Source: Candidatus Afararchaeum irisae (GTDB taxonomy: Archaea; Halobacteriota; Halobacteria; Halobacteriales; Afararchaeaceae). From it: 44,330 bases of DNA. The notes beneath the pieces were generated by a model that ran no database searches, was not told the origin of the DNA, and saw only the letters and a program-made list of their open reading frames with translations. Location: contig JAXIOF010000057.1 in the NCBI GenBank assembly GCA_034190545.1, forward strand, positions 1 through 44,330, in the 5' to 3' direction. Position numbers and translations under genes: made by a program. Below, piece by piece: positions 36,235 to 44,330 of this stretch (position 1 is its first letter; every line of letters begins with the position of its first letter).

Positions 36235-37497
36235 GTGGAAATACGCCGAACAGTACCTGTCAAACTCGACGTGGACGACCACGCTGACACACTCCTCCAA
36301 GAGACTTTCAAACAGTTCAAGAAAGCGTGCCAACACGTCGCAGACGTAGGCTGGCACGCCGAAGACTACATAATCGACAACAAAACTGAACTTCACGAAA
36401 GAACTTACGACAGCCTACGTGAAGCTACCGACCTACAGGCTAGCCACGTCCAACTAGCACGAAACCTCGCAGCCGACGCACTCAAAGGCTGTGTCAAAAA
36501 GCTAGAAAACGATGAAAAAGCAAGTAAGCCTACGTTCACGTCGGATGTCGTGGTACACAACCAGAGAACCATGACATTCAAAGACGGTGGCGTGTCCCTC
36601 GCCACCGTCGATGACCGCATCCACGCTGACTTCATACTCCCTCACGAAGATGATAACGACAACCCACAGACAGAGTATCTGAGTGAAGACTGGGAGAAAA
36701 GAGAAGCTACTTTACACCACAGAGACGGCGACTACTACCTACACGTTACAGTTAGGAAAGAAGTAGAGGATAAAGAGTCGGAGGATGCCGAGAACGGAAC
36801 GTCTCGAAGCGGGAGCTTCGATGGCTCGCAAATCGAAGATTTGCGAACGGTTCTCGGCGTAGATCTAAACGTAACAGGTGGTTTCGCCGTCACTTCAACA
36901 GGTTATTTCGTAGAATCGGCTGACTACATCAACCACGTCCGTAACGAGTACGAAAAACGACGTGGTGGGATGCAAGAAAAAGGCACTCGTTCAGCTCACC
37001 TGACAATGAAGAGCGTAGGTAGTCGCTTTGCTCGCTGGAGCGAGCAAAAACTCCACGAGACTGCTAACGAGATCGTTGAAGAGGCAGTTGAACACAGTTG
37101 TATGGTCATTGCTTTCGAGGACTTAGAAGGTATTAGAGAGAATATATCAAACGACAAGAAGTTTCAGCAGTGGGCATTCAACCGGTTGTACGAGTACGTG
37201 GAGTATAAAGCCGAAGAGAGAGGGATTGACGTGGAACAGGTCAATCCCGAATACACGAGCCGACGGTGTTCTAAGTGTGGTTTTACGCATGAGAAGAACC
37301 GTGATGGTGACGATTTCGAGTGCCTGAAGTGTGGTTATGAGCTAAACGCCGACTACAACGCATCGAAGAATATAGCTATGAAGTATCTCCGCCGTGAGCA
37401 AAAGTCTCACGGCGGAGGGGCTACCAGTCACCTAGCCCTCAAGTCAGGGGTGTTGAACGTGAATGGTCAGTATCGACCTGCCGAACTTCTCGGCTAG
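36235..37497 (+). CDS. tnpB: TnpB, RNA-guided nuclease of IS200/IS605-type elements (IS1341-like)
   Basis: 420 aa from a GTG; the nearby ATG at 36228 is out of frame. RuvC residues are D210 (GVDLNVTGG), E295 (AFEDLEG) and D373 (ADYNASKN), and the zinc ribbon is C345/C348 and C363/C366 (CSKCG, CLKCG), so it looks intact. No tnpA is present, as in IS1341-type elements. Residues 190-205, just before the first RuvC motif, are encoded by a 48-bp in-frame hairpin insertion. Three further strong palindromes lie in the coding sequence and 3' end, where the guide-RNA scaffold of such elements is expected. Confidence 0.92.
   Translation: MEIRRTVPVKLDVDDHADTLLQETFKQFKKACQHVADVGWHAEDYIIDNKTELHERTYDSLREATDLQASHVQLARNLAADALKGCVKKLENDEKASKPTFTSDVVVHNQRTMTFKDGGVSLATVDDRIHADFILPHEDDNDNPQTEYLSEDWEKREATLHHRDGDYYLHVTVRKEVEDKESEDAENGTSRSGSFDGSQIEDLRTVLGVDLNVTGGFAVTSTGYFVESADYINHVRNEYEKRRGGMQEKGTRSAHLTMKSVGSRFARWSEQKLHETANEIVEEAVEHSCMVIAFEDLEGIRENISNDKKFQQWAFNRLYEYVEYKAEERGIDVEQVNPEYTSRRCSKCGFTHEKNRDGDDFECLKCGYELNADYNASKNIAMKYLRREQKSHGGGATSHLALKSGVLNVNGQYRPAELLG
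36787..36858 (+). repeat. Two-hairpin repeat inserted in frame in tnpB
   Basis: A 48-bp insert (36802-36849) sits in the loop of an older hairpin (GCCGAGAAC at 36787-36795, GTTCTCGGC at 36850-36858). Removing it restores codons Asn-Gly-Thr-Val-Leu-Gly, the usual TnpB sequence before GVDLN. Insert hairpins: TCGAAGC/GCTTCGA (36804-36810, 36815-36821) and CGCAAATC/GATTTGCG (36827-36834, 36838-36845, loop GAA). ACG flanks both ends. The insert has no stop codon in any of the six frames. It shares the framework of the array at 37505-37668. Confidence 0.75.
37387..37417 (+). repeat. 12-bp perfect inverted repeat in the 3' end of tnpB
   Basis: Arms 37387-37398 and 37406-37417 with a 7-base spacer, inside the coding sequence for the C-terminus. 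In TnpB systems the guide RNA overlaps the 3' end of tnpB, so this is a candidate scaffold stem. A second palindrome (TTTGCTCGCT/AGCGAGCAAA, near 37027-37048) lies further upstream in the gene. Confidence 0.6.
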
Positions 37498-37504
37498 AAC
37501 GGGA

Positions 37505-37681
37505 GTTGTGAAATCTCTGATTTCACAATCCACAAGATCGAAGATCTTGTGAAGTCCACTGACAAGCTCCGTCCCGAATTCTCCGAATTCGCGGGCTCGG
37601 AAATCGAAGATTTCCGAACGTCCCGAGAACTTCGTTCTCGCGGGCACGTCAAACAAAGTTTGACGAACGCCCTTTAGGGCG
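37505..37681 (+). repeat. Tandem array of 49-nt two-hairpin repeats
   Basis: Three units: 37505-37553, 37571-37619 and 37620-37668, then a closing hairpin CGCCCT/AGGGCG (37668-37681). Each unit is 7 framework bases, a 4-3-4 hairpin, 11 framework bases, a 6-3-6 hairpin and 5 framework bases. Units 2 and 3 share GTCCCGA, TCGCGGGC and CGAAC, while their inner stems (ATTC vs GAAC; GAAATC vs TCAAAC) differ, each pairing within its own unit. Unit 1 has a diverged framework (GTTGTGA) but identical geometry. The array starts 8 bases after the tnpB stop, so it may also form part of its right end or guide RNA. Confidence 0.75.
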
Positions 37682-37747
37682 GAGAAGGTGACGTGACGTG
37701 GCTTCGACTGTGACTCTACCTCCGACTGCCGCCGAGGACTCGGAACT

Positions 37748-43994: not shown

Positions 43995-44330
43995 ATGCAG
44001 GCTCAAGAGTCGGAGTCCTCGGACACGGAAGCACAGACTGAGGTTCTCATCACAGGTCTGAGAGACGAGGAGCCCGGAGACGTAGTCGGAGCCTTCACGA
44101 ACGAGGCGGATGTCGATCCCGAGGCAATAGGAGAGATAAGCATCGAGGACGCCGAGGCTACTGTCGAGGTCGGCGAGGATACTGTAGATAGAGTAGTCGA
44201 CGAGGTCGACAGGGTGGGTAGGTCTGAGGTCTGTGTGAGACGTCTCGACGACGAGACGGAGGCAGTGCGTGAGTACGTGAAGTACCTCGGGGACAAGCCC
44301 CGTTCCGAGATCTCCGATCTCGCGGGCTCG
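43995..44330 (+). CDS. DbpA-type RNA-binding domain protein, cut by the window end
   Basis: At least 112 codons with no stop. Residues about 14-95 resemble the DbpA RNA-binding domain found at the C-terminus of some DEAD-box helicases: VLITGLRDEEPGDVVGAF, then IGEISIEDAEATVEV and a final VCVRRLDD. Here the domain is at the N-terminus without a helicase in front. From residue 100 (DKPRSEISDLAGS) the frame runs into a copy of the two-hairpin repeat, which either extends the protein in frame or has replaced its natural end. Confidence 0.6.
   Translation, partial: MQAQESESSDTEAQTEVLITGLRDEEPGDVVGAFTNEADVDPEAIGEISIEDAEATVEVGEDTVDRVVDEVDRVGRSEVCVRRLDDETEAVREYVKYLGDKPRSEISDLAGS
44292..44330 (+). 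repeat. Partial two-hairpin repeat at the window end
   Basis: Bases 44302-44330 are the first 29 bases of the 49-nt unit: GTTCCGA, a 4-3-4 hairpin GATC-TCC-GATC, then TCGCGGGCTCG. The ten bases before it (GACAAGCCCC) match those before unit 37571 at 9 of 10 positions. The inner stem differs from every other copy. The unit continues beyond the window. Confidence 0.7.

Follow-up and report, generated by a model that had tools for sequence, protein, structure and literature searches.

The double-hairpin repeats in the window, a 44,330-nucleotide contig of Candidatus Afararchaeum irisae, belong to a real, dispersed haloarchaeal family of miniature insertions. They are probably non-autonomous, REP-like mobile units, with template switching during replication as the process that rewrites their stems. 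Each would be a miniature element of about 45–54 nt, with head-to-head hairpins flanked by CGT/ACG tags and joined by a (T)GGC linker. It would insert after CG (often ACG or CGTC), with no clear target duplication beyond the 2–5 bases common to the element end and the target. After insertion, polymerase template switching between the arms would keep the stems perfect and slowly rewrite them.

Architecture and spread of the units

Across genomes, the unit contains two hairpins within 45–54 nt and has the layout (A)CGTC, hairpin 1, (T)GGC or CGGGC, hairpin 2 (usually TCG...CGA) and AACG(TC). The arms are 7–10 bp long (mode 9), and 195 of 210 loops measure 3 nt. Hairpin 1 mostly has C-G as its outer pairs, and hairpin 2 mostly T-A and C-G. 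The CGTC/ACG flanks, part of which the target supplies, are present in the units of every genome read. All five copies reported in a preliminary description of the window were found. That description gave the geometry as 4-3-4 and 6-3-6 hairpins; its loop-to-loop spacing is correct, but the stems were undercounted and part of the claimed framework is stem. It also described a three-unit array, which does contain three units, although the first is reversed and lies 17 bases of host sequence from a tandem pair. The features of the window are as follows.

36235..37497, + strand: tnpB gene with a Cas12f1-like TNB domain (Pfam PF07282, E=2.6e-24), in the IS605/IS1341-type element carrying the units
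36802..36849, + strand: 48-nt double-hairpin unit in frame within tnpB (covariance-model match, E=1.9e-10)
37506..37554, − strand: 49-nt double-hairpin unit in opposite orientation, with arms of 10 and 9 bp (the model matches the minus strand)
37567..37684, + strand: terminal hairpin of the tnpB element (host sequence), CTCCGCCC TTTA GGGCGGAG, split by the 98-nt tandem pair (8-bp hairpin regained in silico without 37572–37669)
37572..37620, + strand: tandem pair, unit 1, TCC-(CGAATTC TCC GAATTCG)-CGGGC-(TCGGAAATC GAA GATTTCCGA)-ACG
37621..37669, + strand: tandem pair, unit 2, TCC-(CGAGAAC TTC GTTCTCG)-CGGGCA-(CGTCAAAC AAA GTTTGACG)-AACG
37685..37691, + strand: probable right end of the tnpB element, AAGGTGA (similarity among copies L129, L131, L132, L133 and L139 ends here)
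44303..44330, + strand: first half only of a further unit, at the contig end (truncated model match, positions 1–28)

The hairpins of the copy within tnpB occupy 36804–36821 and 36826–36846, and its first loop has 4 nt. Arrays grow by tandem and nested units, and two of them (L083 and L089) hold more than a dozen hairpins in series. Ordinary terminators and chance hairpins were considered as an explanation and rejected, since loop-3 hairpins cluster in the units and the remainder of the window lies near the shuffled expectation.

A covariance model trained on 13 copies of the host genome (G000) gives 86 matches at E<=1e-3 in its 1.9 Mb, and copies in other genomes that were not used for training reach E=3e-10. 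The anticipated genome-wide family, with further copies in other halophiles, thus exists. Related Halobacteriales families also carry units, the richest genomes being G009, G037, G048 and G018; the genomes drawn include none other from the family of the host, whose nearest relatives among them are Halobacteriales (judged by named hits). Of 149 genomes drawn evenly from the phylum, only two pass 1e-5, the host included. A DNA search located units on named plasmids of Haloferax mediterranei, halophilic archaeon DL31, Natronomonas pharaonis and others. Several contigs of the host genome end in or near units (44303–44330 in the window, and also, for example, C60, C78 and C106), so units probably break the assembly and copy number is underestimated.

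Other two-hairpin repeats were encountered in passing. One of these, a second family in other Halobacteriales, reads GTCGTT-(CGA..TCG)-TGATCA-(CGA..TCG)-AACGAC and is near-symmetric with variable stems. It occurs at L056, L058, L059, L064, L069 and L070 (matches near 1501–1560), and at L056 it splits a CCCCGGGG...CCCCGGGG terminal hairpin. A symmetric unit, GTGTTG-(..)-CATACGTATG-(..)-CAACAC, recurs in arrays L091, L094, L099, L100 and L101, which have the outer bounds CCCTACTGCG and CTCCTTGAGG.

Insertion into mobile elements, tRNA ends and genes

Aligned loci with and without units identify them as insertions. These recoverable empty sites, like the loop inversion between identical arms described below, were missed in the preliminary description. 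Empty-site evidence comes from the window and L130 compared with Halovenus L139 and Halobellus L138, at two sites each. The unit at 37506–37554 sits between GGGAG and TCCAC, just past the tnpB stop codon; neither Halobellus inordinatus (L138) nor Halovenus aranensis (L139) has a unit at this site, which is filled in five host-genome copies. The split terminal hairpin has CTCCG (37567–37571) and CCCTTTAGGGCGGAG (37670–37684) as the flanks of the 98-nt pair. Its interruption measures 98 nt in the window and L133 and 49 nt in L130, and uninterrupted equivalents are found in L139, L131 and L132. The uninterrupted right end of the tnpB element reads GGGAGTCCACTGACAAGCCTCGGGGCTTGACCCCGAGG in Halobellus inordinatus and GGGAGTCCACCGACAAGCTCCGCCTTTTACGGCGGAGAAGGTGAC in Halovenus aranensis. 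Within tnpB, the unit corresponds to SRSGSFDGSQIEDLRT between ENGT and VLGVD, a gain of 16 codons, and a tnpB paralogue of the same genome (L133) has the empty site GAGAACGGAACGGTTCTCGGC, reading ENGTVLGVD. The same insertion (36802–36849) is also present in L093 and in another genome (L147).

Further cases lie outside tnpB. One gene orthologous between G009 and G048 has a single in-frame unit in each genome (51 and 45 nt), without counterpart in the other, and a tRNA-Pro 3′ end has one additional unit in G009 relative to G037 and G048. Units are found inside near-terminal palindromes of IS605 elements in the window, L130, L133 and L079, and recognition of the 49-nt unit makes some of the confusing palindrome structure at haloarchaeal IS605/tnpB ends intelligible.

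The inserted DNA usually has CG at both ends, and sometimes a longer shared ACG, CGTC or GAACG. This pattern is compatible with an element that would end in AACG and be placed after CG; a true 2-bp target duplication at the units could also be involved. Hairpins of at least 7 bp are present at 12 of 81 restored sites compared with 4% of control CG sites (p=1.4e-4). Since this excess is modest, hairpin targeting is a preference and not a rule, and hairpins were rejected as the general target. Landing sites comprise IS605/tnpB terminal hairpins, tRNA 3′ ends, other units (giving rise to tandem arrays) and genes.

Nearly all units in identifiable genes measure 45, 48, 51 or 54 nt, while non-coding units are mostly 49 nt in the host genome and 53 nt in G018. 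In the host genome, the genes with in-frame units include those for methionyl-tRNA synthetase (MetRS), a beta-CASP RNase, a tetrapyrrole methylase and TnpB; in G009 they include RNA polymerase Rpo3 and UPF0047. The following loci are examples.

L098 1-900 (G000:C40): in-frame unit, methionyl-tRNA synthetase
L103 1-582 (G000:C39): in-frame unit, beta-CASP RNase gene
L146 1422-2246 (G009): in-frame unit, RNA polymerase Rpo3

The residues of the MetRS insert align to a gap in solved MetRS sequences, and the peptides that the units encode, such as DVRQTESDEPSRSDASGD, are hydrophilic. In G018, a number of long open frames are likely spurious and were left out of the in-gene evidence. Of the copies that enter genes, those that keep the frame survive. 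A gene resembling DNA polymerase B with inteins, as read by eye from the translation, contains different in-frame units in G009 (L148 1-4101) and G048 (L162).

The units may move as single-stranded DNA, plausibly by single-strand (HUH/Y1-type) transposition in trans. They could also be REPIN- or PATE-like minimal IS200/IS605 ends moved in trans by a Y1 (HUH) transposase, with covariation reflecting selection for transposability; stems would then remain perfect since only a folded single-strand hairpin would serve the transposase. This alternative to template switching is a tentative one. It would account for the two hairpins with outer tags, the insertion beside a short constant sequence with no evident duplication and the IS605/tnpB location, and the host genome has four Y1 genes or fragments. 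Terminal-only 52-bp PATEs of Haloquadratum are inferred to be mobile (PMC3119063), and REPINs have compensatory stem changes (PMC3116915). However, Y1 TnpA was not found in several unit-rich genomes (G018, G037, G048, G051 and others), some of which are incomplete, and units were not seen to form the ends of any Y1 gene. Co-occurrence of Y1 transposase with the units was not supported, the presence of Y1 not following that of the units. That no transposase is linked to the units also counts against template-switched REP-like elements, the reading preferred here. A more radical proposal is that the family spreads without any Y1 transposase, through a host process acting on single-stranded hairpins, with stems continually rewritten by template switching. 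This is unlikely; if true, each copy would record the rate and strand of switching events.

Changes in stems and loops

Pairing holds in 98.0% of the cells of 134 distinct units, compared with 72.5% after shuffling (0/500) and 29–50% with the arms slid, in agreement with the earlier observation that both arms change and stay paired. The 2089 stem cells of these units include 14 G-U pairs (0.7%) and 42 mismatches. Double changes occur at 15 of 16 pairs, and the covariation score is 0.644 vs. 0.164 in shuffles. The idea of a fixed framework with free stems is correct as to covariation but overstated, as mean column entropy is 0.80 bits in the framework and 0.96 in the stems (1.58 in the loops), and some stem positions are fixed as A or C. 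The stems combine invariant pairs (closing C-G, central A-T) with a small number that vary, several stem pairs being no less constant than any framework base.

Paralogous arrays differ at 62 stem pairs, comprising 41 double Watson-Crick changes, 3 G-T pairs, 17 one-sided mismatches and 1 two-sided mismatch. G-U pairs are not enriched among the departures from pairing and are about as frequent as random mutation would yield. Selection for RNA pairing would give a G-U excess; as none is present, the departures resemble random mutation. This makes it improbable that the stems are conserved as RNA, for example within the tnpB omega RNA or in regulatory hairpins, with compensatory changes arising through RNA selection. 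The window units do lie in the tnpB 3′ region, where the omega RNA scaffold is expected, and the host hairpins there covary too. Yet the same tnpB scaffold occurs without units in Halobellus and Halovenus, copies occupy both orientations, many unrelated genes and tRNA ends, and an Rfam scan of the window gave no match.

The tnpB 3′ end itself (window 37387–37494 and 37567–37684; L130–L133, L138 and L139) forms a chain of hairpins within and beyond the coding region, including GGGCTA-ccagtcacc-TAGCCC, one hairpin beside the stop codon and the terminal hairpin. Their arms covary among paralogues, and the loops and linkers are fixed. This chain is likely to be an omega RNA scaffold.

Identical stems recur at many loci (e.g., TCGCAAATC, TCGTGAATC and CGAGAGC), and blocks of several pairs differ together between paralogues. 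Both observations would fit whole-hairpin swapping by recombination among units with a limited stock of stems, instead of template switching within hairpins. The probability of such swapping is nevertheless low. Single double-changed pairs occur in fixed surroundings, as in the tnpB insertion common to two genomes, where TCGAAGC/GCTTCGA is changed to TCCAAGC/GCTTGGA in coding DNA, and loop inversion between identical arms requires an event within the hairpin.

The strongest indication of how the stems change comes from the loops. Among homologous hairpins with equal arms and unequal loops, 19 of 36 pairs have loops that are exact reverse complements, whereas the controls gave 1 reverse and 1 complement; these are counts of pairs, mostly from paralogous arrays and thus non-independent, and mis-registered array alignments could contribute some. 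The cluster figures come from a strand-normalised test with flanking alignment, in which 8 of the 15 groups contain a reverse-complement loop pair; the null expectation is 1.46 on average and at most 6 in 2000. Clear inversions within long homologous context are TTCA/TGAA in L131/L132 (a host hairpin) and TCT/AGA in the window/L133. The usage of loop triplets is correlated with that of their reverse complements, with a few near-symmetric units counted on both strands. In two strains of Halocatena marina, the 3-kb loci compared are identical.

Double Watson-Crick changes without G-U intermediates, together with inverted loops, would be explained by template switching between arms. An intrastrand switch would transfer an altered base from one arm to its partner, and switching between strands would invert the 3-nt loop; the process would also act on the hairpins of the host element. 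Arm homogenisation with spacer inversion is what has been described for template switching at short inverted repeats (PMC8604942; PMC8794818), and the units show such a footprint with unusual clarity. Template switching is therefore the presumed cause of both covariation and loop inversion, although frequent double changes could also arise via structure selection or gene conversion among units with a limited stem set. Of the two causes originally suggested, a copying mechanism is better supported than selection for structure by the double changes without G-U excess and by loop inversion. The frequent inversion of unit loops also argues against movement by a Y1 transposase, as a tested TnpA-REP, that of S. 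maltophilia, becomes severely defective when the loop is replaced by its reverse complement (PMC8266576). Should template switching be the correct reading, covarying stems would not by themselves prove a functional RNA. The more than 130 units of one architecture are a natural test set for covariation from selection vs. mutational copying.

Two contigs of the host genome (L108 and L109; G000:C29 and C36) share, at 100% identity, a 689-bp stretch that contains several hairpin clusters. Each copy has two internal repeats that are 86% alike, with inverted loops (ATT/AAT).

Comparison with known repeat systems

The preliminary description knew of no similar haloarchaeal family, which overlooked the PATEs and SMR-A of Haloquadratum (PMC3119063). 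Like the units, the PATEs of Haloquadratum walsbyi are haloarchaeal and palindrome-based, lack classical terminal inverted repeats and target duplication, are as short as 52 bp and are tied to IS605-type elements. PATEs, however, resemble IS605 ends, whereas the units are inserted within such palindromes, differ from them and possess a framework of their own. SMR-A shares the haloarchaeal host, the absence of target duplication and the location inside near-terminal palindromes of IS605 elements or PATEs (PMC3119063). Compared by description, it differs in its length of approximately 110 bp, its prominent inverted terminal repeats and its commonly >95% likeness per type, as the units have about 49 nt and variable stems.

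REPINs share with the units paired hairpins that act as a single mobile unit and compensatory stem changes, but have a GTAG tag and a dedicated flanking RAYT, neither of which was found for the units (PMC3116915; PMC8266576). Template-switch mutations at short inverted repeats share arm homogenisation, multi-base compensatory change and spacer or loop inversion; the published cases concern yeast genes and rRNA genes, and not the evolution of a mobile repeat family (PMC8604942; PMC8794818).

CGTC-tagged REPs, which include Rickettsia RPE-4/RPE-6 and Neisseria dRS3, have only bacterial hosts in the survey that describes them (PMC3733652). The units share their CGTC tag (published variants TGTC/CCTC), stems of typically 8–9 bp, head-to-head heterodimers of unlike hairpins, intragenic copies, lack of a dedicated transposase and alternative complementary residues in the stems. 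Such compensatory stem changes are known in bacterial REPs and REPINs (PMC3733652; PMC3116915). The differences are loops of 4–5 nt in REPs vs. 3 nt in the units, complementary A/T in the first two stem positions of REPs, a rule the units do not follow, and the common tandem arrays, 2–6 nt linker and archaeal host of the units. Because of the loop length and the stem foot, the units are not filed as members of the CGTC-tagged REPs. Their GCCA/TGGC linker holds CCA on one strand; the short tail of published CGTC-tagged REPs is mostly CCA, on a strand that is not readable from the figures.

The units share with Rickettsia palindromic elements their in-frame insertion in unrelated genes, housekeeping genes included (MetRS, Rpo3, beta-CASP RNase, UPF0047 and tnpB for the units). 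The analogy with Rickettsia drawn in the preliminary description is apt at the level of in-frame palindromic insertions, because the units are in frame in genes and RPE-4/RPE-6 of R. conorii are classed as CGTC-tagged repeats (PMC3733652). The units thus extend CGTC-tagged, REP-like double hairpins to the archaea, where they lie in frame within essential haloarchaeal genes.
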